A DNA stretch of 64,000 nt from Bryopsis sp. KO-2023 (lineage: Eukaryota; Chlorophyta; Ulvophyceae; Bryopsidales; Bryopsidaceae). The notes under the pieces were generated by a model. The model worked only from the letters and a program-made list of their open reading frames with translations, did no database searches and was not told the DNA's origin. A program made the translations under genes and the position numbers. Each line of letters starts with the position of its first letter. Positions within the stretch are counted from its first letter, which is position 1. Positions 1 through 18,137 of the stretch are shown piece after piece. The stretch is from assembly GCA_030272585.1 (NCBI GenBank), contig BSYQ01000002.1, positions 5,580,001-5,644,000 of the forward strand, given 5' to 3'.

Positions 1-719
1 GCTGGGATAAACAGGGTCGGCAATAACCCCCAAATAGAACGCGAAACAATAACAAAATCAATAGTCGATTTATCCCCCCTATTATTTTCAAAAGTAAAAC
101 CTCCAGATTGATCACCTCTAGCTCGCCCATTCAAAACTACCAACTGGAAGGACTCACACAATTGAAGCAATAGGCGTCCGTTCCGGTTAATACATGTGTC
201 CCGATTCTGCCTATTGGGAACAAAAACCGATGAGTCCAGAGAATCACCGTAAAACCTGTTTCCCTTGCCAATCCTCGAATTAAAGTCCCCTACTAAAATA
301 ACTGGAGCACTGCTTGACACAGCAGTCAAAACCTCCTGAAATCTGTCCCACAGAGAAATGTCCCAAAAAGGTGATGAGCTTGGAGGGACATAAGTGGCCA
401 AAACCGAAAAATGAAAAGAATAAAAAATACACTTCAAAACTATCAACCAGTGAGAAGAATAAGTGGAATCCATAGAAACTTTCAAACCTTTCGATCGCTT
501 AATGTACACTCCTACACCTCCACCTCGATCCGAAATAGAGCGCTCAATCCCAAAAAAACGTGTATTACCAAAACATGGTAGAGAAGCTAAATTTCCAATA
601 TCAGACAGCGCAACAAAATGATTATTAGAAATCAACTGCAACAAATATGGCTCCTTATAAGATACAAAACCACGACAGTTCCAACATACCAAATTTAACA
701 GAGGATGATGGCTTGAATC
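1..719 (-). CDS. LINE ORF2 endonuclease domain (partial)
   Basis: Starting right after the ORF1 UAG, the same frame stays open to the window edge (about 239 codons). It begins DSSHHPLL then NLVCWNCRG, the typical first strand and metal-binding Asn of exonuclease-endonuclease-phosphatase domains. Later landmarks are RGGGVGVYIKR, then VILVGDFNSRIGKG (catalytic D and N), and near the edge GGFTFENNRGDKSTIDFVIVS, which matches the conserved SxIDxIxxS-like end of LINE endonucleases. The domain nicks target DNA to start target-primed reverse transcription. No internal stop or frameshift is seen. There is no in-frame AUG near its start, so expression would need readthrough, re-initiation at a non-AUG codon, or loss of the UAG. 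Confidence 0.85.
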
Positions 720-1915
720 CTAGCGAGAAGAAAAAGAAGTGGGAAAAAGTGAGGTATGCCATGTATCCCCAGGAGACCAATCTTTCCATGTATCGCCTTC
801 ACCAGAAAATTGAAGACGATATCCAAAACGCCAACGAACCGTAAGACCAGCTTCTCGAGCACGCCGATAAACATCGAGGGATTGTTTCCTGCGATTTTGT
901 TGCGACGTAGTTAAATCTGCAAACCAATCAACCTTCCAAAAGTCCTCTGGAAGGCGACGATTCCCCGGTGGCTTGGTACTGTCTGACGCTTGGACATCAC
1001 GTTTAGCACGACGAAGACGCAACGCCGCGATCTTCATCTCCTCGCTTTGAAACTGAATCAAAACGGGGCGCTTGTATCCGTCAGCTCGAGCTCCCATCCG
1101 ATAAGCCTTCACTACTTTGGGGGCATCTGAAGATAAGGAGTCGAAAAACGCTTGTAAAGACGATCCCAAAGAGGCTTCGGACTCCGTTGGCGACTCGGGC
1201 AACCAACGGAGGACAACATTGGTTTTCTTGAGTTGCTGTTCCAGCCTGTCATTGATCCCCTCCAAATTAGAAACTTGCTCCTCCAGGACACGGAGACGAT
1301 GTGAGAACCGGGCTATCAAGTCCTCTGTTTTTGACAAATGGTGGCGGATAGTAGAATCCAGGGCATCCAACAAAGTCGCTGCCAATGAATCCACCCCTTC
1401 CCGATCCGGAAAAAACTGCCGGACGCTGTCCAAAAATTTATCCCTCAAACCGCCAACACCAGCACCACTATCGACCTCCATACGCTGCGGCAACGCACCT
1501 TCCCCATCAGGCGGGGAGGTATTGGGTCCAGAACGCAACGGGGCATATTGCAAGTTCGCCAACAGGGCATTATAATTCGTAACGCTTTCCTTCTTCTTCT
1601 TTTTCATCTGATCAGCGGTTGCACCAAGCGGAACCCTATCGTCCCCGCCGGAACGACCCCGAGGAGTTTTCATACAAACAACAGACGAAGGAGAAACGAA
1701 AGAATGACACTCCCTAACCCACAGAGGGACGGGTGAAGCCGGCGCAGAAAGAGAGGGACCCTCACACAAAGCGTGCGGAGCAACCAAACAGGAGAGAGGT
1801 TCCGAATCAGTGGTGCAATCAGACGGAATCGTTGCGGAAAAAAAAACAGGCAATCTAGATCTCACGCCCACAAAGATAACGCCCACTATGAAGTTCTTTG
1901 GAAAAGATACCATCA
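1..1915 (-). mobile_element. L1-type LINE, 3' part beyond window edge
   Basis: Non-LTR retrotransposon read on the minus strand. ORF1 (about 1916 to 720) is followed at once by the apurinic-type endonuclease domain of ORF2, which runs off the left edge, so reverse transcriptase and tail are not in the window. The element lies in the body of an F-box gene whose 5' end remains at 1925-2253. The exact 5' boundary is unclear, roughly 1850-1920, and its target duplication cannot be tested because the other side is missing. Assignment to the L1 group rests on the ORF1 architecture (coiled coil, RRM-like core, basic C-terminal domain). Confidence 0.85.
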
Positions 1916-1916
1916 T
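720..1916 (-). CDS. LINE ORF1p (L1 Transposase_22-like RNA-binding protein)
   Basis: 398 codons are open; the true start is probably one of the internal methionines (about residue 82 or 104), because the first 30 or so residues overlap the end of the interrupted F-box gene. A coiled coil is visible at about 195-232 (heptad leucines in RFSHRLRVLEEQVSNLEG). An RRM-like core follows at 233-305 (NVVLRWLPE ... VVKAYRMGA ... RPVLIQFQSEEMKIAALR), then a C-terminal domain at 335-375 (TSQQNRRKQSLDVYRRA). This order is that of L1 ORF1 proteins, which trimerise and package element RNA. The ORF ends at a UAG (722-720). The next codon begins ORF2 in the same frame, with no AUG before the endonuclease motif. 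Confidence 0.82.
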   Translation of the reverse strand: MMVSFPKNFIVGVIFVGVRSRLPVFFSATIPSDCTTDSEPLSCLVAPHALCEGPSLSAPASPVPLWVRECHSFVSPSSVVCMKTPRGRSGGDDRVPLGATADQMKKKKKESVTNYNALLANLQYAPLRSGPNTSPPDGEGALPQRMEVDSGAGVGGLRDKFLDSVRQFFPDREGVDSLAATLLDALDSTIRHHLSKTEDLIARFSHRLRVLEEQVSNLEGINDRLEQQLKKTNVVLRWLPESPTESEASLGSSLQAFFDSLSSDAPKVVKAYRMGARADGYKRPVLIQFQSEEMKIAALRLRRAKRDVQASDSTKPPGNRRLPEDFWKVDWFADLTTSQQNRRKQSLDVYRRAREAGLTVRWRFGYRLQFSGEGDTWKDWSPGDTWHTSLFPTSFSSR

Positions 1917-2253
1917 TTGTAAGATCCATTATCGCTATTAAGCGGGGAAATAGATTCGTTCCAATGAGTCGATGTCCCACCACACGTCTCATGCCAACTG
2001 CAATCATATCACCTTGTTTGGATGATTGACTGATTGGGAGGGGGTCTGAGATGTTAAAGTTTGAACGCTTCGGTTCGATTTCACCCGTTCTCCATGCTCT
2101 CTCTAACTTCAGGTCATGTTTCTCGCAGATCAAGTCTCTCCAGACTTTCGCCACTGAACAGCACCGTGCCAATCGCTTGATCGGAAGAAGGTCAAAAATA
2201 TGACACAGGACCCCATCCGGCAGATCCCAGTTGGCGCTCACCAAGTCACTCAT
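1855..2253 (-). pseudogene. F-box protein gene, 5' part, cut by the LINE
   Basis: The frame opens with MSDLVSANWDLPDGVLCHIF, a start and F-box nearly parallel to the intact gene at 12441 (MSDSISVEWDLPRDILVEIF). The F-box spans about residues 8-50 (LPIKRLARCCSVAKVWRDL), then a KLERAW segment shared with the other family member. It is followed by the start of a WD-like region (GDMIAVGMRRV), after which similarity stops and LINE sequence begins. The F-box would bind Skp1 in an SCF ubiquitin ligase, and the missing WD40 part would bind substrate. About 130 residues remain against 350 in the intact paralog, so this is a gene broken by insertion, unless the LINE is a recent polymorphic insertion. 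Confidence 0.75.
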
Positions 2254-4940
2254 CCCTGAATCGCAAAGCCAAACAAACTTGATACATGTAAACGGAAGAG
2301 AGACAGTACCCGTAAAAGAATGTCACTTTTTTCATTTCTAAAGAGTCTGTGGCGCCGACGCACCCCTGCCCAGAACCACAACAAAGGAATGCCAACTGAT
2401 CGGTATAGAACCGATGCGAAACTTTTTCAGCACAAGCGAGCGAGGAAAGAAAAAAATGTACCACTACTGGCATTCTCTCGAAAGGGCTTTCTTGCTTTCG
2501 GTTGCCCTCACCCTCCTGTGCAAAAGCCCCTCCTTCACACACGAGATAGCTCTCGAAAGGCACAACCTCTGCGGAGAATTCTTGATTTCCTGCGACTTTG
2601 CTTTTCGACCACAGTGGATCGGCGGCTGGCTCGTTTCGGAACGTTTGGACACATCCCTCGCCTGCTGCCTGAGAGCTTTGAGGGGGATTGGGAACGCGAT
2701 TGAGATTGAGATGCGAGACGGCCATCCGCCACGTTTGATTCGTCATCCTCACTTTTTGGGTCCTTTTCCAAATGCGGAATAAAGCACCGTCGGACGATCA
2801 CAGAGACCGCTCAATTTACTTGGTTTTAATACGAAGATTTTCACTTTTGTCGAAAGCTCAAAAGGGAAGGACAGAAACAGCAATGCCTTACTATCTAGAA
2901 ATTATCTCTTTCACCAGGATACCTCACATCAATTCTGAACAAAGCCTTTTAAAAAAACCCCACCATGCCGCCAAAAACCACAAAAACAATATTGTACCAA
3001 ACCCATAGATTCCTGGTAAAACAGATTTAATCCCCTCCCGCTCTCTCTCACACACGATCACATCCATAATTTTCCTATGCATTGAATGACCTGGGAAAAC
3101 CATCACCATGGTGAGTCCTAAAAAAGGACAACCGATACTGCCAGTCTGCTAGTACAGTGCACCCCAAAAGAAAAAATGCAAGTTTACTTGAACCCGGCCC
3201 CAAGTTTTTTTTTATTTCCTGCTGAGGTCCTTCCAAGGCCCCTGGCGGCGCTAATCATAATAAGAGTGTGGAAAAACAAAACAAAAAATTGGAAAATTAA
3301 CCAGAGGAGTGTCGATATTTTCAGCAAAGACGAAATATAAACATTAAATGGCTACTTCGGAATGTGTGAGTTTAGTTGAAAAAAAATCTGAGGTATGATT
3401 TAGAATCGATGGTTTGCTCTATGGAATAATTGCTTCCACAAATTTCTAGTTCAACTTTTCCCTTTTCCTGGATGAAGACAAGATACCCCCTTGCAAACTG
3501 ACTGTTGAATATCTTCTGTCAAATCGAAAAGATGAAAAAAAAAAAAACCCATTGGTGAGGCCTGGACTGTCTCACCATAATTTGCAGCCCAAATGAAACT
3601 GGAGCATAGAAAAGGATCCAAAAATGACGTTTTTGTATAGCCTTGCAAGAGATTAGTCACTGTTGGCCTGCCTCCAAAATGAATAAAAAAAGAAACTCGA
3701 TGCAGTTCCTGCTGTCGATTCCTTTCAATTTAAGGAAGGGACTTCGATTTTATCGACCCCAAGGTTAGGTTGGTCAATCGAATCGTTGGGGCTACTCTCC
3801 TGGATTCCAAGGAATGTGCACCTGAGCTTAACACAACAACTCTAGGTAATGATGTGGATTGTATTTCTTTTTTGAAAAGCACCTGTATCAAACACGACTG
3901 AGGGGCGATTTAAGTTCACGGTTGTATGGCTGCCCATTTAATGTTTCTTTTTCATTTCTGCAAAAAAAAAGATGACACCCTTCTGAGGATCCTGTTTGTT
4001 TTTTTTCTCACTCTTTTGATATTCAACATCACCACTATGGCCTTGGGTAGGCCTCAGCAGTAAATAAAAAGTTGGGGCAGATCAGCAGCAGCATATTTGA
4101 TTTCTAGAAAGAGGACTTGTTTTTTGCTGGCCCCATTATCATAAAACTGTTTAACTCGACATTAACTAGAGAAAATGGAAAATATGAAAAAGAAAAAAGA
4201 AAATTCTTAAGAATTACACCTGAATGATAAGAGATGCTCTGACGATGATTTTTATCGCCGGTGTTTTCCGCAAAACCTTTGCTTCTCTTCATGTTGCTCC
4301 TCTTTTTTTTCGCGTTTAATCCTGAAAGAATTATTACTTTTTTTTTGAAATTAGAGATGCACATCAGTGACTGTTCGTATAGACAGGCTCAAGGAACAAT
4401 GTTCTAAATATTGTTTTGAGAATTTATATTTGAGATAAAAAGGCAGGCTCAATTCCTCTGTGCTCCTATGATAAAAAGTAATCTTTTCCTTTTATTTTTT
4501 ATTATGGGTGTATGAGTGTTTTCTTTTGATATTACCTTTTCTTTCACCTGGAGAAAAAGAAAAGAGTAGGGTCTGTCGTTTTCTGTTCGACTCGACTCTT
4601 TTTTTTTCTTTTGGGAAGAAAGCGAGGTGTGACTGTAATGGGACAGGATTTGGCGCTGTCCTTCAAACATTTGTGTTTTTTTTTTCATCTCATGTCAGCT
4701 ACTATTTTCTCAATTATATCCAGTTCAAAACATAGATCGATATGCATATAACATTATTTTTCTTTGTTTTTTTTTATTTTCCAAGAAGTTTTACACCCTC
4801 TTCTTAATATCTTCTTTTGCTTTTTTTTCGCACTCTTATCATAAGAGTGTGATATGATATCAACAGCCACCTGCCTGGTGGTGGAGGAAATAGTTCATCT
4901 TGAATCCTCAAATTCGAATTGTAGCATGTGTGGGGTATTG
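2254..4940. other. Intergenic, no gene recognised
   Basis: Many short overlapping frames occur on both strands at 2320-2800 (upstream of the F-box gene) but none has a recognisable motif. From about 3150 the sequence becomes AT-rich with many A and T runs. A short perfect palindrome with 9-bp arms (CACTCTTAT C ATAAGAGTG) lies at about 4832-4850. I see no RNA gene or transposon ends here. Confidence 0.5.
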
Positions 4941-6283: not shown

Positions 6284-6286
6284 CAG

Positions 6287-6317
6287 CACTATGGGAAAAC
6301 CCCGTCTGTGCGATGTT
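6287..6317 (+). repeat. CACTA left terminal inverted repeat
   Basis: The first 31 bp, starting CACTATGGGAAAACCCCGTC, mirror 11177-11207 with two mismatches. The CAG target duplication precedes it. TGCGATGT subterminal words follow at about 6308 and 6327 and, inverted, near 6382. Confidence 0.85.
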
Positions 6318-6687
6318 GAAATTTCTATGCGATGTCAGTGGCCATGAAAGGCGTCACCACCATTTTTACGAACACATCGCACAGACATCCCGTTAAAAGC
6401 TCCCGACACTTGGTTGGGGACACTTTCATGTACGACACTTTTTCTTCTTGATGTCCAGCACCACGCCATCTCAGTTTCTATTTTTCCTCCTTCGCTGTGA
6501 GCGCTCTAGTGCTTCGCTCGCGAGAGGGCTTTGGGGATCCCACGGAGTCGCGTCGACCATCTCCCTACATATTGCGCCCTTGGAAGCGTCGTGTTCAGAA
6601 ACGTTTGCGTTCGTCTTCCCTCTTCGAAAGCAACAACTGCTGCTGCATTCGTCAAGCATGCACAGTCAGTGTGCTGGGGGTTTTCGG

Positions 6688-9628
6688 AGCTTAATGTCCA
6701 GGGCTTTTCGACAGGGTTGCCGGAGAGGCTGCAGAAGGCGCTCCTGCACACTCTCCCTGGATTGGAAAAGTGCAAAATGCTGAGGGCCCATGCTGGTGGA
6801 GTACGATTACATGCCGGTGTATCAATGCAGCCACACGCTAGAAACCAAAAAAACTTTAGGACCATTCTTCAGCGGGCAGCTCAATGGAACAAGAGGTGTT
6901 TGGATACAAGAATAATGAACAATTTGTTTTTCTTTTTTGAAGGTTATTCATATGTATGCCTGACAAGGATTTCCAGACTGGCTGGATAAAATCCCACGTC
7001 GAAGCCAGCAAGCACGCAGTTGGAAAGCCGCTCCTGCTAGAAGAATTCGGGAGAAAACTGGACGGGTCCGAGCCAGATGAGCTGACCAGCATCATGTTTT
7101 TGAGGGACCCCGATTTCAACAGAACTTACGAAATGCTGGAAAGCAAGATCAAAGCCAGGCCCGGAGCCTTTGTGGGAACTCTGTTCTGGAGATGGTTTTT
7201 GCCATCCTATGAAAGTCAAGGAAGAGGTAACAGATGCATGTAAAAAAAAGCCCCAAAAATTGTGAAGAGGTGTATATTTGGCCACAGAGTCGAATTTGAA
7301 TTCGACGCATGTACATTGAAATATGGTGCAAGCTGGTGCTGCTTTTTCTGGTTCATTGAATTCTTGTCGAGTGGGGGATAGGTTGGCGATGTTTTTTTTG
7401 TGAGGTTTTTTATTTTTCTTTTATTTTTCCGACAGGTTTATATGGTGTCGACCCTCGAGACACGACTTTTGAGTTAGTGAAGGAGCATGCCAATTTCATA
7501 AGAAAGGTGCGGTGTCCCCCCCCAAGAAAAATCCAAAAATCCAAAAAATCCAAGTGTATACTTTTTTTTTCGTGAGTGCTTTCACAAACAAGGTAATAAT
7601 ATCCTTGCGTATGTGAATGCATGGTTTTTCATCTTCCCCCCCCCCCCACAAAAAAAAACCCCAAGAAATTTACTTGAACTAAAAGCAGAAAATACATCCA
7701 TCAATTGATGTACACAGGTAAACAACGCTCAAGCCCCTGGGGAAGACTGCACAACGGGCTGCTGGGTTCCACACACTCGAGGCCAGCACAGGATTTGCAT
7801 TCCAGCACCGCACGCCTGCAAAACTTACTGGGAAATGCCCGACAAGGATTTGATGAAAGACGTCATCATGCAGGTTTGGGACAAAGACGTGAAAGTGGCT
7901 TGTATGCTGGTTTGACCATGATTTGGACAAATGGACACCAAGCAATGACTAAAGTGTGGGTTGTGGTGTACAAAGGGTACGAAGAAGCGGCAGCTCAGAG
8001 CTTGATTGCGGGGATCAATGCTGCAAGGCAAGCCCAGGGTTTGTCGGAGTTTGAGTTGTACACGCGGACTCTTATCAACGATTTGGCCACAAAAGACCTT
8101 CGAGAGCCCTACAGGATGTTGACCAGCAGATCGGAATATGGTTTGATGCTACAGTCAGACAATGCAGACGAAAGGCTGACGTCTCTCGATCGAGAAATTG
8201 GCCAGGTGAGATGATGTTCAATGGGAAAAATCCAAACCAAACAGGTAAGTGTGGTGGCCGATGGAAAAGTTTTGAGTTTTTGTTCGAAAGGCAATCCGAC
8301 TGCTTAACCGATCGGAAAGAGATCTTTGAGGTGTATTGGGTTTTGCTGTGGGTTGTAATTATGATTATTATGATTATGATTATTATGAGGTGTATTGGGG
8401 ATTTAGCGGAAATGAGGGTTGATCTGAAAAGGGGGAGGGGTAGCGACAGTCCAAACCTTTGTTTCTGCATGAATTTGATGTTAAGAATGATTCCTTGTAG
8501 AAAAAAATTAGGGCCGAGAGAGAGAGGCTAGCCAGCATCTGGGTGGATCCTGGCAGCGAGATATTCCAGGAAATGGTGTTGTTGACTCAGCAAGAAATGA
8601 GAAGGCTTTTTCAGATCAGAAGTGGGTTAGTGTGACAGTCATTGTCGTTCAATTGGTGATGTGCATTTATCTATCTCTGTCAGTTTTATCGTTTTTTTAT
8701 TGATACATTTTTTTTAGATTTCTGAAGAAATCTAAAGAAAGTAGTATTCTTCATTCAATCAACGTGATTTTGGTTTCTGTTGCCAACAGGACAGAATGGC
8801 AAAGCCTCCACCAAAGGCTGCAGCCGCTCCTCGTGTTTGGTCACTTTGGAGGAATTGCTGAGGTGGCTTCATGTGCACCCTGGGATTGTCGATGAGTATG
8901 ACATGGGCCCTCCTGTGGTGAACTTCCGGTACTGCATCCTGATGCAGTGTGGTTGTGTTGCTTTTGTTGAGATTGCTGGGCTGTTTTCATTTTTGCCCTT
9001 GCAATGGAGAGCCAACCAACCAGGTTGTAAGGGTTGGATTTGGTGGGGTTCATCTTGTGTGCAGAGCGAAGCTTTGAATTACTTGGAGGAGTCTGTGGAG
9101 ATCAACACAAAATACGAAGGTTTCATCAAGCGCCAGAAGAAACATTTGGAAAAGTGCAGGGGAAGAGGGGGAAAAAGATTCCTGACAACATTGACGACTC
9201 GACCATTCAAACGCTGTCGATGGAGGCTGGAGAGAGACTGCAAAAGGTTGGGGTTAACATTGCAAAGGCAAGCCACCATCATATGTTCCTGTTGAGAAAT
9301 GTTTCTTGTTTGGGATCGGTTGCTACGGCTTCCAACTCAAAATTAAACAGAACACCACCTGTTCACCATTGAGCAAGCGCCGTCTGTTCCAAGAAATGAC
9401 AGGCTGTCGACCATTCACATGGAGCTGCTGATGGATGTGTGGAAGTTTCTGTCTTTGCAGATTCGACCGAGGAAAATCGGACAAGCTTATATGATCGGTG
9501 GCGTGAATCTGGCTTATATCAGCTCCCCTGTTGGTGAAATGCCTCGTGGTCGGCCCGAGTTTGTTGACGAATTATCTGGTTTTTGGGGAAAGACCAACCT
9601 CCAGAAACCGAAGCGGTTGATGACGTGA
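6688..9628 (+). pseudogene. Captured MnmG/GidA (MTO1-like) C-terminal half
   Basis: MnmG is an FAD enzyme that, with MnmE, makes the 5-carboxymethylaminomethyl-type modification at U34 of organellar tRNAs. Visible pieces in order: [18 protein letters not shown] and [19 protein letters not shown] with [11 protein letters not shown] (6688-6895); [18 protein letters not shown] and [17 protein letters not shown] (7976-8205); RAERERLASIWVDPGSE (from 8501); VEINTKYEGFIKRQKKH and GKKIPDNIDDSTIQTLS (about 9090-9249); and IRPRKIGQAYMIGGVNLAYI (from 9461). Intron borders are GT-AG (for example 6896-7975, 8206-8500). At least two indels break the frame (near 6783 and 9155). The N-terminal FAD-binding half is absent. 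It lies wholly in the CACTA element, so it is a captured fragment, and an intact donor gene should exist elsewhere. Confidence 0.85.
6943..7915 (+). pseudogene. Captured GH5 endo-beta-mannanase 3' fragment
   Basis: Three exons with GT-AG borders read through in phase (6943-7226, 7436-7506, 7718-7915, TGA stop). Exon 1 encodes [23 protein letters not shown], carrying the family's catalytic Glu in LLEEFG, then AFVGTLFWRW, both typical of the end of GH5 mannan endo-1,4-beta-mannosidases. Exon 2 gives LYGVDPRDTTFELVKEHANF. Exon 3 gives a cysteine-rich tail ([16 protein letters not shown]). The enzyme would hydrolyse mannan outside the cell. The 5' two thirds are missing, and one extra base between HMY and PDKDF (near 6960) breaks the frame. 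The fragment lies inside the MnmG intron 6896-7975, so capture was nested or stepwise. Confidence 0.78.
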
Positions 9629-10196
9629 CGGAATACATCACGGACTCCGAGGACTTAATAAGAGGCTACAAGAGTTTTGGCGATTTGTTGGGGAGACTCA
9701 CGAACGTGGTTCGCGGGATATCAGAGAGCAAGGGCAGAACTCCTGAATCTAAACCGGTGGACCCTCCCAAGGCCCCACAGACAGATCCTCTGAGGGATGG
9801 ACCAGCTCAGCGGCCTCACCCTGCTTATGTGGGGGGGCCAAGGTACCCATATTACCCTGGGGGTCAAGGGGGCATGATGCCAGACATGGGAATGGGAGTA
9901 GGGGGTTTGGGTGGGGGAAGGATGGGGGGTGGAATGCATGTGGGGCCCAATGACCCTATGTTTCGGGGCGGGGTGTGGCACCCTGGAATGCCAGGAAGGC
10001 CAGGGCCCTGTGTCCCAAGATTTGATCCGATTGCACCTTTGGGACTGCCGGGTCAAGGCCAGAAGACTTCCAGCGGGGAGAACCATTCAGAGGGGAGCCA
10101 CGACTTCTCGATCCTGACATGGAGCAGTTGGGCCCTGGTTTGGGTCCTGACTCTGACAGGATTTGGGTGAATTTCTGGGACGGGTCGGAGGACTGA
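9583..10196 (+). pseudogene. Captured proteasome inhibitor PI31 C-terminal part
   Basis: The frame gives YITDSEDLIRGYKSFGDLL, then a Pro/Gly/Met-rich region ending in the signature HVGPNDPMFRGG and PRFDPIAPLGLPG, the HbYX-region context of PI31/PSMF1 proteins, which bind and modulate the 20S proteasome. After GLPGQG the frame must shift by one base to continue PEDFQRGEPFRGEPRLLDPD to a TGA at 10194-10196, so one base appears missing in the run near 10060. Its N-terminal domain is absent. It directly follows the MnmG end, in the same orientation, inside the CACTA element. A transcript fused with MnmG is conceivable but not shown. Confidence 0.75.
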
Positions 10197-10796
10197 ACAT
10201 GAAATTAGATATTCAGATATTCCTTCTCGGTTTTGTTTTCGAGTTTGCTTTAAATGATGAGAATGTGCAGGAATAGCAGTCTTTTGGTGCACTTGGAAAT
10301 GCAGTACAGACTGGAAAAGAAAGAAACAGAGTGACTCTGTCAGCCACAGAAAAGTGTATGTTTTGCTTCGCCTGCCAATAGTTTCTTCCAGCAGTTTATC
10401 TTGATTTCTTGGGATTCTTTGCGTCAACAAATTTCTTGTCTCAGGTGACATGGGATACACAAGTCAAGTTGTATTTTCGGGTAGGAGCAAAGAGCTTTTG
10501 CAGAGATACCTTTTTGCTTATTGGTGGGATATTTAGCCCAGTGACGCTGATTTGGGAAAGATGGCACCAGTTGAAAGTGGTTTCTTTTTGGGAGAGAATG
10601 GCAAAAGAGCTTGTTTCTAAATCAAGGGAACAACAATATTCTGGGAAAAATAAAAGAGAGGATATCCTCGTTTGCTGGCAATCAAATGAGGTGAATCAGG
10701 AATTTAGGGTATTGTTTAGTGGGCTTCAAGTACCTTCGTTGTTGTGTAAAGAATTTTCCAACAATAAAACTGACATCGCCTCTCTTTTCATCGCAT

Positions 10797-11207
10797 AAAC
10801 GGGGGCACAACATCGGCCAACAGAACATCGCACAGGTGCTGCCACAACATCGCCCAACAGAACATCGCGTAAACGGTGCCAAAACATCACACGCCGTGCG
10901 TTGTTCGAACAGCCCCGTGCGATGTCTCTCGCAAGAGTCGTCATCGCAAGACATGTTACGATACGACATCGCGTAAACGGGGCGAATGCATCGCATAATG
11001 TGCGATGCTGCATATGCACTGTGCGATGTCCTCTGTGCGATGTCCCAAGCAAAGACGTCAGGAATGCAACATCGCACAGCGCGACATCGCGTAAACGGTG
11101 CCAACTAGTCGCACAGCCGTGCGATGTCGCGCATACTATATGCGCTGTGGATAAAAGATTGTGCGAGGGTGTGTCAAACGTCGCACAGACGGGTTTTTCC
11201 CATAGTG
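10797..11207 (-). repeat. CACTA right subterminal array and terminal inverted repeat
   Basis: This stretch is packed with TGCGATGT/ACATCGCA words in both orientations and about four copies of catcgcgtaaacgg(t/g)gcc. It ends in the terminal repeat at 11177-11207. Such subterminal arrays are the known binding platform of CACTA transposases, which is inferred here from position and repetition only. Confidence 0.75.
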
Positions 11208-11369
11208 CAGGCCACACCAATGTTTCCTTTTTATTTCAAAGTTTCTTTTTTCTTCTCGCTTTCAGGAAAGAAATTCGGCAGCAGGGCTCAGTGGTCAGTT
11301 CACGAGGGGGTTTCTTGTTTTAATGAAGACAGAAAAAAAAAGGAACGAGAAATTTGGACAAGCATTTAT

Positions 11370-12440: not shown

Positions 12441-13493
12441 ATGAGCGACAGTATTTCGGTGGAATGGGACTTGCCCAGAGATATTCTAGTTGAGATTTTT
12501 GGAAGGATTCCTGCTGAATCTCTTGCTAGATGCTCGTGTGTGGCCACATCTTGGCGAAAAATTACAAATGAGGAGGCAGATTTTAAAAGGAAAATCGGCT
12601 TGGAGCGTGCATGGTTGCACGAACCAATAGAGCCCATAATTCACAAAGGCTCAAAAAGAACTTCATTTACATTTTGTTGTGCTGAGATGGAAGGTCTCAT
12701 TGCCTTGGGTGGTTACGACGTCTTGAAGGCCTTCAATTTCGATCGAAAAGAATTTACTTTTGATTGTGAGGAGATAGGCATGGTGTGGAGTCTTTCCTTC
12801 ATGGATGGAATGCTTGTGACCGGAAGAAAAGGTGACTTGTGTGGATGGGATATATCCACATGGGAAAAGCTTTTTTGCGTGCCCGCTCTTGATTCAAATA
12901 TCTTTTCAATGGCAGACCTTGGCGACAACGTGGCTATTGGAGGGTTCGATGGAGACCTTCAAATTTGGAAGAAAGGGGTATGGGAGCCGATTGGCTCTCT
13001 CGAAGGTCACAAAGGTAATATCACTTGTCTCTTGTCCCAACGAGGCAATATCTTGATCAGTGGGTCAGGGGATGAGACGATCCGAATATGGAACTTGGCT
13101 GGTAATGTCTGCCTCAGAGTCATTCGTGGACAGGAAAAGGGAGCGATCTCCTTGGATGTTCTTGATGGAGTCATTTTTTGTGGAGCATGTGACGGTAACG
13201 TTCGCTCATGGGAACTCGAGAGTGGTCAGCACTTGCAAACATTTCAAGGTCACACAGATAGTGTGGCTTCCGTCTTTCTCAAAGAAGGTCGCATGTTCAC
13301 GGGATCATACGATAGAACGATAAAAATATGGGATCCAACGAATGGCGAGTGTGTCAGGAGTTTTGATTGTTCGCAAAATTTGCACCAAGAGATCTGGCAA
13401 AGAATGTATGTGTTACGGGTTGATGATGAAAGGTTGGTAGCCGTTCGTGGTAACGGGGAGATTTGGGAGTGGGATTTTTCTCACGGGTTGTGA
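12441..13493 (+). CDS. F-box/WD40 protein, intact, intronless
   Basis: 350 codons from ATG to TGA without introns. The F-box is at about 9-50 (WDLPRDILVEIFGRIPAESL, then CSCVATSWRKI), the Skp1-binding module of SCF ubiquitin ligases. A WD40 propeller follows from about 80 to 348. The clearest repeats are at 187-218 (GHKGNI ... ISGSGDETIRIWN), 225-258 (GACDGNVRSWE) and 270-299 (GHTDSV ... GSYDRTIKIWD). It probably recruits a phosphorylated or otherwise marked substrate for ubiquitination, though the target cannot be inferred. Related genes lie at 1855-2253 (broken) and 50294-51343, so the family is locally expanded. A gypsy element begins about 230 bp downstream. Confidence 0.9.
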   Translation: MSDSISVEWDLPRDILVEIFGRIPAESLARCSCVATSWRKITNEEADFKRKIGLERAWLHEPIEPIIHKGSKRTSFTFCCAEMEGLIALGGYDVLKAFNFDRKEFTFDCEEIGMVWSLSFMDGMLVTGRKGDLCGWDISTWEKLFCVPALDSNIFSMADLGDNVAIGGFDGDLQIWKKGVWEPIGSLEGHKGNITCLLSQRGNILISGSGDETIRIWNLAGNVCLRVIRGQEKGAISLDVLDGVIFCGACDGNVRSWELESGQHLQTFQGHTDSVASVFLKEGRMFTGSYDRTIKIWDPTNGECVRSFDCSQNLHQEIWQRMYVLRVDDERLVAVRGNGEIWEWDFSHGL

Positions 13494-13919: not shown

Positions 13920-16900
13920 TTATCTTTCCCAATATTCTTGTACCCTTTCGGGAGCGTTAGCCACGTTTCTTTTTGACTCCCACGTAGCCTCATGGGCCGG
14001 ATAACCTTTCCATAAAATCAAATATTCAAGTTTCTTTCCTTTTCCACGGTGACGTAAAATTCTTTCCACCTCAAACTCTAATTCTCCTTCTATCTCTATT
14101 GCCTCCGGTGGCGTGATGTCCCGAGTAAATTCCATGGAGCGATTAAACGTTTTCAATTTGTCAATATGAAAAACATTATGAATTCTCCAAGTGTCGGGTA
14201 GATCGAGTTTATAAGCAACATCGCTCACCACCTTAGCGATTTTGAAGGGCCCAAGAAATCGTCGTCGAAGCTTTGTCGGTAAGGTCTTCTTGAATGCAAA
14301 GCTTAGATCCTTGGCGTTAAGACATACTTCATCTCCCACTTGATAGGTCTCATGACGCCTTTGACGATTTGCTACCCGTTGCATCCGCTCTTGCGCCTTT
14401 GCATAATTTTCCTTCGCGTCGCGTAGCTCCTTGTGCATCCTTTCAAACATCGCTTGGGCATCCTCGTTCTTGGTCTTTTCTTGTGTGGAGACTCCGGTGA
14501 GGAGTGCGTCCGGGACAAAACCTTTTTGCCCATATGCTAAGTGAAAAGGTGAGTACCCCGTGGTACTATTCACCGTGTTATTAATCGCAAATTCCGCGAT
14601 CCCCAAGTAGTCTATCCATTCCTCCGGCTTCACTTCTACATACGGTCGTAAGTAGTTCTCGATTGTTTTATTCACCACTTCCGTTTGTCCATCCGTTTGG
14701 GGATGGAAGGAGGTACTTGCCTTGTGTTCCACGCCCACCTTTGCACACAAATGCTTCCAAAAAGAGCTCATGAAGCGAGGATCACGATCCGAGATTATTA
14801 CCTCCGGCATTCCGAAAGAACGAAACACCGTATCAAAGAGAATGGTTGCGTATTTCTTCGCATCCACCTCCTTGGAACATGGAGCTAACTTCACCATCTT
14901 CGTAAGGCGATCCACGAAGACCGCGATGGCGGAGTAGCCCTTGCTTTCCGGTAGGTCGGTAATCAAGTCGGTTGTCACGTGTTGAAATTTCCTCTCCGGA
15001 ATAGGTAAAGGATTTAATAATCCTTTCTTCCGTTGAGTGTCCGGCTTGATGGTTTGGCACATAGGACATGTTCTCACATATTCGGCCACCGAACTCCGCA
15101 TTCCTTTCCACCAATAATGACGTGAAATCATCTCAAGTGTTTTTGCTTGACCCGCATGCCCCGCATGTGGTAAGTCATGATTGTGCTCCAAGACTTGTCT
15201 TCTCTTTTCCTTTGGAACCACAATCCGCCACTCGCCGTTCTCTATCCTTTTCTCCAAGAGTCCCTCCGTTGACATCCGGTAGTGTGTCGAATATTGCTCC
15301 GCATGATGATGTAAGTCTTGAATAATTCCCTCACACATTGTGTCTCTCTCTTGTGCTTGCTTCCATTCTTCTAATTCCGTTCCTTGGAACGCTAATGTCA
15401 CTCCAATTGTTCCCAAGGTATTAGTCTCATTCACTTTGGGTGTGGATCTACTCAAAGCATCGGCTACAAGGTTAGCCTTTCCCGGCAAATACTTGAGTGT
15501 GGGACGTATGCTTTGAAAATATCCCGATTTCAAATATCGTGTTTGCACCCGTGATAACACCTTTTGATCGAGGAAGTAAACCACCGGTTGGTGATCCGTG
15601 TAGACCGTCACACCTCCTTTGCATCCTTCGAGGTAATGCCTCCATGCTTGAAGTGCGTGTGCGATAGCTCCAAGCTCTTTCTCGTAGGCACTATACTTCT
15701 TTTCTCCCGAAGAAAGCTTGCGTGATAGGAACGCAATAGGTTGGTTTCCACTTCCTTGATCTTGCATTAGGACTCCTCCAAACGCTTCATTACTTGCATC
15801 GGTTACCACCACGTACGGAAGCTCCGGGTCGGGTATCACAAGGACCGGTGCTTGTGAAAGAAGGGTCTTGAGCATCTTGAATGCTTGTTCTTCTTTCTCA
15901 CCCCACTCCCACATTTTATCAAGCTTAGTCAAGTCATGTAAAGGACTTGCAATTCTAGCAAAACCCGGTATAAATTTCCTATAATACCCTACTAAGCCTA
16001 GAAAAGACCGAACTTCCGTCACACTAGTGAGTGGTTTCCATGCGTTCACCGCTTTGACCTTAGACTCCATTGGACTAATTCCTTGTTCACCCACGACATA
16101 ACCTACGTATTCCGTTGAAGAAACCCCTATCGAACACTTACTAGCTTTCGCAAAAAGTTTGTAGTTCCGTAACCTTTTTAAGACTAGTTCTAAGTGCCGA
16201 TAATGTTCCTCTATTGAGCGAGAGTATATCAAGATATCATCTAAGAAAATAACCACGAAATCATCTAGGTAGTCCCCAAAAATATCTTGCATCATGGACA
16301 TGAATTGGGCCGGAGCGTTAGTGCATCCAAAAGGGAGCACTAAAAACTCAAAAAGCCCATACCTCGACTTAAACGCCGTCTTTTCTATATCCTCTTCTTT
16401 TACCGGCATTTGCCAATAACCGGATCGCAAATCTATTTTACTAAAAACCCGTGCTTTTCCTACCCTATCAATCAATTCTTCGGGCAAAGGAAGGGGGTAA
16501 ACGTTTTTCTTTGTGATCTTATTGAGCCACCTATAATCTATACACATTCGAAGGCCCCCATCTTTCTTTGGAACGAATAAAATAGGCGCCCCGAATGGGC
16601 TCTCACTAGGCCTAATAAAACCATGTTCTAGCAAATAATCGATTTGAGTTTTTACTTCCTCTAACTCGGCCGGACTCAAACGGTAAAGAGGCCGATTAGG
16701 CGGTTCTTGATTTGGTTCTAACTCAATCGAAAATTCATGACCTAACCGCTTAGGGGGTAAACCCTTCGGTAAATCCGTGCAAAACGTTTCCTTATGAGTT
16801 TTTAATATTTCCTTGATTTTCTCATCCTCAACCTTAGAAAGTAATTTTTCTAGATCCTCTTGATTCTTTTTCTCTTGATCTCCTTCATCCTCTTTTCCTT

Positions 16901-18137
16901 TTTCTTTTTCTTCCCGGTCTCTAACGACCACGACAAAGCTATTTTTCTGAATTTTCTTATTTTTCTTGTCCACACTATTCATAATACTAGCCGCCGAACT
17001 TGCGGATAGAAATTGCGGTTTTTCCCTTTGAGTTGATGGTTTATTCGTTGGTAACGAAATCCGTTTCCCTCGATAAAGTATCCTAAGCTCATTTGCATCA
17101 AAATCAATCTCCGGATTCCATTCCACTAACCATGGTAATCCTAAAATCAGTGGGTGTAATAATGTCGGAAAAACAAGTGCCGTAACAAGAAAAGAACCTT
17201 GCCCGCACTTCATCCGAAAATAAACTTTCCCTAAAATCTTTGTTTCATTCATATCCGCTACTTTCACCGTTTCCGTATGCGGATGTATAACCAAACCCAT
17301 TTGTTCCGCTAATGTCTCGTCTATAAAATTTGCTGTAGCCCCGGAATCTACCAAAGCTAATTGTTTTATTCCATTCACTTTTATTTTTAGTTTAATTCCA
17401 GAAAAATCTGTTTGAGGGTTTGTTGCACCTGAGGTCTCATCCTCCTTAGAGTCCACTTCAGTTTGCACACCCTTCTCCATCTCCAGTTTCAGCTCCTCCT
17501 TAGCTTGCTCTTGAGGGGCTGGATTTTCTGACTTTTTATTACTTCTTTCCTCCACCATCACATCCTTGTGGAACTGCTCCTTCTTCTTCTTTGCTTGCTG
17601 CTGCTGTTGAGCTGACTCATCTTTCGACTGCTCATCCACAGCCAACTTCTTTTTCTGCTGCTGCTGCTGCTCCTGAGTTGACTCATTTTTCGACTGCTCA
17701 TCCACAATCAACTCATCGATCTCCAGCACTTTGATTTCTGCAGGGTTCGACCTTTCGACCCCCACGTCCTTAATCCCTGTCTGCTCGATCCTCTGATAAT
17801 CCACCGTCGTCTTCGATAACTTCGATACAGGTCGAAGTTTAAGTCCATATTTCTGTAAAATTTTAATTTCGCCCCTGTGCACAGTTTTTCTGGGATGATC
17901 ATTCCCCAGACTGTAATTTCGCGTTTTCTTTTCGCCAGCAGTTCCCTGTTCCACGTTTTGCAGCTGTTTTCGACTTTCATTTTCGTTTCCAACCTCTTTT
18001 TCGTTTTTATTTTCGCCCTTTTCGTCGTCCTTCGTCGTCCCACGACGCACCTGCAGCAGTCGAATACCAAAACGGTTTCGAACTGCAGCAATTTCGATTG
18101 GCTTCCCCAGGCCCCACAACTCCACCATTCTTTTCAC
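13920..18137 (-). CDS. gypsy 1 Pol: protease, RT, RNase H, integrase, chromodomain
   Basis: About 1405 codons without a break (counted from a GTG; translation is more likely entered from gag by frameshift). Domains by residue: a Q/K-rich N-terminal linker (about 150-190); retroviral aspartic protease with DSGA at 264-267; reverse transcriptase about 480-690 with IDYRWLNK and FLDD at 631-634; RNase H about 775-895 (TDASNEAFGG, YTDHQPV); integrase with the HHCC zinc module (986-1027) and catalytic D1057, D1117, E1153 (DRDPRF ... HPQTDGQTE); and a chromodomain at 1352-1403 (FEVERILRHRGKGKKLEYL, LWKGYP). The chromodomain marks it as a chromovirus, a group whose integration is steered to modified histones. 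All catalytic residues are present, so it may be active. Confidence 0.92.
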   Translation of the reverse strand: MKRMVELWGLGKPIEIAAVRNRFGIRLLQVRRGTTKDDEKGENKNEKEVGNENESRKQLQNVEQGTAGEKKTRNYSLGNDHPRKTVHRGEIKILQKYGLKLRPVSKLSKTTVDYQRIEQTGIKDVGVERSNPAEIKVLEIDELIVDEQSKNESTQEQQQQQKKKLAVDEQSKDESAQQQQQAKKKKEQFHKDVMVEERSNKKSENPAPQEQAKEELKLEMEKGVQTEVDSKEDETSGATNPQTDFSGIKLKIKVNGIKQLALVDSGATANFIDETLAEQMGLVIHPHTETVKVADMNETKILGKVYFRMKCGQGSFLVTALVFPTLLHPLILGLPWLVEWNPEIDFDANELRILYRGKRISLPTNKPSTQREKPQFLSASSAASIMNSVDKKNKKIQKNSFVVVVRDREEKEKGKEDEGDQEKKNQEDLEKLLSKVEDEKIKEILKTHKETFCTDLPKGLPPKRLGHEFSIELEPNQEPPNRPLYRLSPAELEEVKTQIDYLLEHGFIRPSESPFGAPILFVPKKDGGLRMCIDYRWLNKITKKNVYPLPLPEELIDRVGKARVFSKIDLRSGYWQMPVKEEDIEKTAFKSRYGLFEFLVLPFGCTNAPAQFMSMMQDIFGDYLDDFVVIFLDDILIYSRSIEEHYRHLELVLKRLRNYKLFAKASKCSIGVSSTEYVGYVVGEQGISPMESKVKAVNAWKPLTSVTEVRSFLGLVGYYRKFIPGFARIASPLHDLTKLDKMWEWGEKEEQAFKMLKTLLSQAPVLVIPDPELPYVVVTDASNEAFGGVLMQDQGSGNQPIAFLSRKLSSGEKKYSAYEKELGAIAHALQAWRHYLEGCKGGVTVYTDHQPVVYFLDQKVLSRVQTRYLKSGYFQSIRPTLKYLPGKANLVADALSRSTPKVNETNTLGTIGVTLAFQGTELEEWKQAQERDTMCEGIIQDLHHHAEQYSTHYRMSTEGLLEKRIENGEWRIVVPKEKRRQVLEHNHDLPHAGHAGQAKTLEMISRHYWWKGMRSSVAEYVRTCPMCQTIKPDTQRKKGLLNPLPIPERKFQHVTTDLITDLPESKGYSAIAVFVDRLTKMVKLAPCSKEVDAKKYATILFDTVFRSFGMPEVIISDRDPRFMSSFWKHLCAKVGVEHKASTSFHPQTDGQTEVVNKTIENYLRPYVEVKPEEWIDYLGIAEFAINNTVNSTTGYSPFHLAYGQKGFVPDALLTGVSTQEKTKNEDAQAMFERMHKELRDAKENYAKAQERMQRVANRQRRHETYQVGDEVCLNAKDLSFAFKKTLPTKLRRRFLGPFKIAKVVSDVAYKLDLPDTWRIHNVFHIDKLKTFNRSMEFTRDITPPEAIEIEGELEFEVERILRHRGKGKKLEYLILWKGYPAHEATWESKRNVANAPERVQEYWER

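Follow-up and report, generated by a model that had tools for sequence, protein, structure and literature searches.

Transposons that are bounded by terminal inverted repeats (TIRs) and have captured pieces of host genes are described in land plants (PMC8903248) and, as Pack-TIRs, in animals (PMC8277862); the comparisons drawn here with these and other published systems extend to the excerpts available of each source. The soybean element Tgm-Express1 is a 5.7-kb CACTA transposon that holds fragments of five unrelated genes with introns and exons kept (PMC1947982), and Pack-CACTA and other Pack-TYPE elements are reported from Arabidopsis, maize and rice (PMC8903248). An element resembling both lies in a green seaweed, Bryopsis sp. 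KO-2023, at positions 6287-11207 of a 64-kb stretch of contig C2 (BSYQ01000002.1; C2:5580001-5644000, 'the window' below). The resemblance is well supported; the algal host and the readable order of capture are the interesting parts. We consider it probable (roughly 0.8) that this is a non-autonomous CACTA element moved in trans, whose interior was built stepwise by the patching of breaks and which then spread recently. Among the matches listed, no green-algal gene-capturing TIR transposon appeared in the titles or abstract openings of open-licence papers, and a diatom paper that contains the word Pack-CACTA has it in its reference list only.

The likenesses to the described systems are partial. 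Tgm-Express1 belongs to a land plant and is shown to yield chimeric transcripts, whereas the Bryopsis element is known from DNA alone (PMC1947982). The Pack-TYPE elements likewise have other hosts, and the capture of one gene within an earlier capture, seen in Bryopsis, is not predicted by neighbour fusion as outlined there (PMC8903248). Animal Pack-TIRs, attributed to gap filling, share junctions that are blunt, hold a few added bases or have microhomology (median 2 bp), as well as breakpoints skewed towards the inside of the element; they are mostly single-copy, unlike the Bryopsis element with its at least five dispersed copies that have both ends (PMC8277862). Non-autonomous Ds-like elements of maize also contain interior filler DNA, a few fillers being matched to intron-bearing genes, but they belong to the hAT superfamily, not to CACTA (PMC3260210).

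That the interval is a non-autonomous CACTA-type transposon carrying gene fragments (Table 1) had been proposed for 6284..11210 in an earlier reading of the letters only (the sequence-only reading) and is confirmed. The element starts CACTATGGG and finishes CCCATAGTG, with CAG on either side. Its termini are of the CACTA type and stand in inverted repeat, as in the CACTA (EnSpm/CMC) superfamily; the two repeats match at 29 of 31 positions, and the arms can be extended to 35 nt at 91%. The window has 11 occurrences of the motif TGCGATGT where 1.45 would be expected, and none of 100 shuffles attained 11. Nine of the occurrences lie inside the element close to its ends, which bears out the subterminal arrays described earlier; subterminal repeats are present in both orientations, as is usual for the superfamily. 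In the genome searched (91.1 Mb, 28 contigs) a 27-bp end pattern with up to three mismatches has 54 + 48 occurrences and a control pattern read backwards has none, so the termini do recur away from this locus. As the sequence-only reading had it, there is no transposase within C2:5586287-5591207 that a 221-aa transposase query or PF02992 would match. The flanks, joined by one CAG, match C2:8482424-8482671 (98%) and C2:7219286-7219531 (94%), both element-free; these are paralogous places on the same contig, not orthologous sites of other species. Because such sites carry a single CAG, the element must have inserted as one unit. Neither observation that the sequence-only reading named as refuting it was made: the termini are present in other parts of the genome, and MnmG and PI31 are intact at other loci, with the flanks joined where the element is absent.

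Table 1. Features of the element and copies of its family. Element positions are window positions minus 6286.
Feature	Window position	Element position	Strand	Source, evidence or place
Whole element	6287-11207			C2:5586287-5591207; 4,921 bp
Target-site duplication CAG, left copy	6284..6286		.	single CAG at two empty sites
5' TIR, CACTATGGGAAAACCCCGTCTGTGCGATGTT	6287..6317		+	end-pattern and inverted-repeat comparison
5' subterminal region with TGCGATGT motifs	6318..6509		+	
Leader to ATG, glycine-rich secreted-protein gene family	6510..6660	224-374	+	96.7% to L058; may begin as much as 9 bp further upstream
MnmG piece 1, exon and intron start	6687..6906	401-620	+	donor C3:5983387-5983608
GH5 piece, two exons, introns kept	6912..7896	626-1610	+	donor C13:1189508-1190491
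MnmG piece 2, holds 59-bp insertion	7898..8603	1612-2317	+	
Ala/Lys-rich coiled-coil gene, non-coding stretch and exon start	8604..8836	2318-2550	+	donor C3:2620425-2620662 (L055)
MnmG piece 3, 86-bp loss relative to donor	8839..9523	2553-3237	+	
PI31 piece, 3' coding part and downstream non-coding DNA	9525..10276	3239-3990	+	donor C1:7439101-7439853
MnmG piece 4	10277..10456	3991-4170	+	
Piece of unnamed DNA from C8	10459..10571	4173-4285	+	C8:3287002-3287119, 89%
Unassigned interior	10572..10770		+	matches there are family members
3' subterminal repeat array (ACATCGC / TGCGATGT units)	10771..11176		+	
3' TIR	11177..11207		-	end-pattern and inverted-repeat comparison
Target-site duplication CAG, right copy	11208..11210		.	
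Copies with both termini				window copy; C12:1849279-1854141; C5:574804-579666; C8:5702697-5707311; split C2 copy
Truncated copies				C8:1788947-1790137; five on C11 (C11:2594300-3804400)

Captured DNA accounts for 4,025 of the 4,921 bp (3,966 without a 59-bp insertion), and the interior derives from host genes present elsewhere in the genome, as in Pack-TYPE elements. The sequence-only reading had named three captured genes in one orientation. Its MnmG, GH5 and PI31 stand, their sources being named by Pfam, and all five gene pieces that could be named share the one orientation. That reading had missed the C8 piece, the coiled-coil piece and the leader from the glycine-rich-protein gene. Intact donors were found elsewhere in the genome, as had been expected. 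The MnmG source gene, C3:5981750-5983608, serves for all four MnmG pieces and matches PF01134 (E = 2.3e-31), the intact PI31 source PF11566 (E = 1.1e-13) and the joined exons of the GH5 source PF00150 (E = 5e-8). Of the element's own stretches, that from PI31 reaches PF08577 with E = 0.0072, under the cut-off, and the GH5 exon has no Pfam match. None of the coiled-coil source open reading frames (ORFs) passed the Pfam cut-off, and 'Ala/Lys-rich coiled-coil' is a descriptive name. No GH5 donor closer than the C13 gene was found with 12 of 12 candidates scored; a partial GH5 duplicate (C4:4028300-4029300, match at C4:4028783), 92% identical to the C13 gene, begins within an exon that the element also carries. 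In the MnmG and GH5 pieces the introns came along with the exons, so what was captured was DNA and not RNA.

The MnmG pieces are in register with one another. Along the element the donor coordinates run 2993-3214, GH5, 3215-3887, coiled-coil, 3898-4016, 4103-4668, PI31 and 4666/4668-4851, the 86-bp loss falling between 4016 and 4103. At the GH5 junction the MnmG donor bases are adjacent (3214|3215), with 0 bp lost and 5 and 1 filler bases; at the coiled-coil junction the donor passes from 3887 to 3898, with 10 bp lost; and the PI31 piece follows donor base 4668, with 1-3 bp duplicated, 2 bp of microhomology and 1 filler base. By these coordinates the GH5, coiled-coil and PI31 pieces evidently interrupt a single, formerly continuous MnmG piece at a cost of 0-10 bp. 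The coding DNA of MnmG is also the most diverged from its donor (83/946, against 25/642 for PI31, P = 1e-4, and 11/440 for GH5, P = 5e-6), with synonymous divergence of 15.3% compared with 6.8% for PI31 (P = 0.016) and 8.0% for GH5. Of the four pieces that can be put in order, MnmG is by nesting and coding changes together the oldest capture. Overall identity was given up as a means of dating every capture, since in GH5 and in the coiled-coil piece the coding DNA tells a different story from the non-coding DNA.

The nested pieces with their losses of 0-10 bp, and MnmG as the oldest by coding changes, point therefore to repeated patching of internal breaks. Such nesting is predicted by gap filling (PMC8277862) and not by the neighbour-fusion model of Pack-CACTA, as far as the excerpted accounts go. 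In that model, proposed for Arabidopsis (PMC8903248, PMC13317346), neighbouring elements with complementary terminal deletions fuse and then move together with the DNA between them. Fusion of this kind could explain the first MnmG piece or the leader piece; the three later pieces sit inside MnmG with 0, 10 and 0 bp lost, and complementary deletions ending at nearly one base would be needed three times. We regard it as quite unlikely for the element as a whole, and for the nested pieces it is disfavoured. A single repair event could alternatively have joined all pieces by repeated template switching between genes. The short fillers and the 2-bp junction microhomology would suit the replication-switching model set out in the available part of PMC8277862, as would the equal non-coding divergence of MnmG and GH5, but three times, and with no homology at hand, copying would have had to resume close to one MnmG base, and MnmG coding DNA has moved further from its source than PI31 or GH5 coding DNA has from theirs. 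A single event of this sort is accordingly rated unlikely.

At least 11 places carry the family, five of them with both termini and six truncated (whole-element search and local mapping); the copy counts are lower bounds, the best 40 of 126 candidates having been scored. Target duplications match in four of the five copies with both ends (CAG, ATA, TCC and ACA), and 3-bp duplications are also present in all three related elements read. The window, C12, C5 and C2 copies differ by 0.02-0.33% among themselves. Relative to the window copy, C12, C5 and C2 diverge by 0.11-0.16%, the full-length C8 copy by 0.73%, the truncated C8 copy (C8b) by 1.18% and the C11 copies by 1.31-1.82%. The 59-bp insertion (~8341-8399, between 14-bp repeats) belongs to the window copy only, among ten copies that cover the place. 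The C11 copies are decayed; the 3' flank is common to all five and at least 160 bp of 5' flank to four of the five, and two begin at element position 206, right after an identical flank base. Because of these common flanks the five are counted as one insertion that local duplication then multiplied. They are also what might be said for a pile-up of fragments or an assembly error in place of a mobile element; against this stand the dispersed near-identical copies with differing flanks and differing matched target duplications, and the clean empty sites refute it, so that its probability is negligible. The dispersed near-identical copies hold all pieces, which were thus mobilised as a unit after capture, as in Pack-TYPE elements. 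Donor-element synonymous divergence (6.8-15.3%) is well above the 0.73-1.82% by which the outlying copies differ from the window copy, and capture therefore preceded the recent spread.

A likely autonomous partner, whose existence the sequence-only reading had anticipated, is found at C2:6489003-6501808. This 12.8-kb element duplicates CTC, contains transposase-like ORFs and has ends related to those of the window element (88% over the first 49 bp, 78-80% over ~110 bp of 3' subterminal DNA). A genome search with a query made from its transposase-like ORFs gives 68 matches at the level of exons, which form three identity groups; in the group at 52-55% identity, a CACTATGGGAAAACCCGCTCTGTGCGG end lies on the same strand 5.7-7.6 kb upstream of 13 of the 18 places (hand count). 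A profile of four transposase members matches a PF02992-positive ORF of the same genome weakly (E = 0.0011), and the assignment of the partner's putative transposase to tnp2 is likely but weak. Homologues were found only in Bryopsis (four proteins, among the best 8,000 candidates by common words). Three matches of the profile in solved structures (E = 0.49-0.74) were taken as chance, and PF02992 hits on C12 were not adopted as the partner, being near no element end among the matches listed (100 of 102). Two other non-autonomous relatives, of 3.1 kb on C13 (target duplication ATT) and 4.3 kb on C2 (TAA), align throughout to both ends of the autonomous element with its middle missing, and no gene pieces were recognised in either; a third candidate lies at C2:5301311-5310937. 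On the two that were read, the earlier proposal of a CACTA lineage that captures genes in general is not supported.

On the favoured reading, then, the tnp2-like transposase of related full-length elements would presumably move the element in trans. A stretch of about 1.86 kb of the MnmG gene was acquired first, the earliest of the four pieces that can be ordered, and later breaks within it would have been patched with short copies of other genes (coiled-coil, GH5, PI31), break repair being the probable capture step. Last came the recent spread of the finished mosaic, by ordinary cut-and-paste transposition.

A frameshift and one stop interrupt the MnmG exons, the frames of the PI31 exons are shifted, and the frame opened by the ATG of the glycine-rich-protein leader closes after 41 codons. 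For MnmG and PI31 alike the ratio of nonsynonymous to synonymous differences (pN/pS) comes to 0.48, where ~0.5 is expected for an unconstrained copy compared with a constrained gene. A protein search with the PI31 source gene returned that gene itself as the sole Bryopsis match among 15, and one with the element's PI31 stretch returned no Bryopsis record among 58 candidates.

Several results weigh against stepwise patching of inert cargo moved in trans. The partner's transposase ORFs match no Pfam model, and hhalign gives the four-member profile a probability of only 20% against the PF02992-positive ORF. The split C2 copy, interrupted by a 14.5-kb insert of long terminal repeat type (C2:2594025-2608536; its 172-bp direct end repeats are identical and 4 bp are duplicated), lacks matching target duplications (GTA versus TCT). 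No element holding MnmG only, as an intermediate, was found among the best 40 of 126 candidates scored. The non-coding divergence of MnmG (60/642) is not separable from that of GH5 (34/356; P = 0.91), so for the greater age of MnmG relative to GH5 only the nesting and the coding changes speak. Lastly, GH5 has a pN/pS of 0.14: half the synonymous rate would predict 13.9 nonsynonymous changes, and there are 4 (P = 0.002; four pieces were run, three with enough coding sites). Neutral decay after separation from the C13 gene does not account for the GH5 piece. The coiled-coil piece tends in this direction too, with 0/50 coding and 18/183 non-coding changes (P = 0.016). Either the true sources would be functional duplicates outside the assembly, which the partial GH5 duplicate at C4:4028783 makes plausible, or the exons would have been constrained inside the element.

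The second of these options leads to the proposal of a chimeric gene: the mosaic would be, or once have been, expressed, and selection would have preserved its GH5 part until the family spread. Its GH5 exons are uninterrupted, the second identical to the source at 59/59 residues, and the low pN/pS would follow; all five identified pieces are in sense, and the one on the 5' side supplies another gene's leader with its ATG. Five of five pieces fall on one strand by chance in 1 of 16 cases, however, and the sense orientation was dropped as a sign of selection. The frameshifts in MnmG and PI31 also speak against a chimeric gene, and the C4 copy shows that GH5 duplicates exist, so that an unsampled functional one may be the true source. 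Among element copies the GH5 exons and introns change about equally fast, and there is hence no sign of constraint since the spread; from the first GH5 exon 124 bp are missing in the full-length C8 copy and in each of the five C11 copies. Overall we hold an expressed chimera to be very unlikely, and the cargo is most likely non-functional baggage, the GH5 constraint signal standing against this. An equally doubtful variant would make the element a serial collector that over a long period repaired internal breaks with sense gene pieces, its GH5 exons selected for part of the time as a mobile proto-gene of a siphonous alga, before breakdown and spread as baggage.

Some further observations concern related sequences and the surroundings. 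The family with the CACTATGGGAAAACCCGCTCTGTGCGG end is a large CACTA family (18 places) with intron-split transposase-like ORFs, some recorded as hypothetical proteins; the annotated transposase models cover the gene in part. The likely autonomous family carries in its 3' part tandem repeats of ~103 bp in varying number (L061/L062, L069). The leader piece has its sources in a glycine-rich secreted-protein family, found in arrays on C7 and also on C3. One tandem array, C7:1004431-1039556, has 14 matches spaced exactly 2,690 bp, the three units read being identical, and another, C7:745660-768430, has six spaced exactly 4,523 bp. Element positions 224-374 recur in the C7 arrays near a CACTA end and were considered as a CACTA promoter; this was rejected, the stretch being the glycine-rich-protein gene leader in L056-L058. 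Adjoining the element in the window are an ORF at 12441-13493, which we take to be F-box/WD40-like, and one at 13920-18137, presumably a Ty3/gypsy-like polyprotein.

The nested pieces of the Bryopsis element give a readable order of events, with junctions that have lost 0-10 bp and carry short fillers. Sequence by itself thereby becomes enough to test neighbour fusion against break patching, and the genome at hand is compact (91 Mb).

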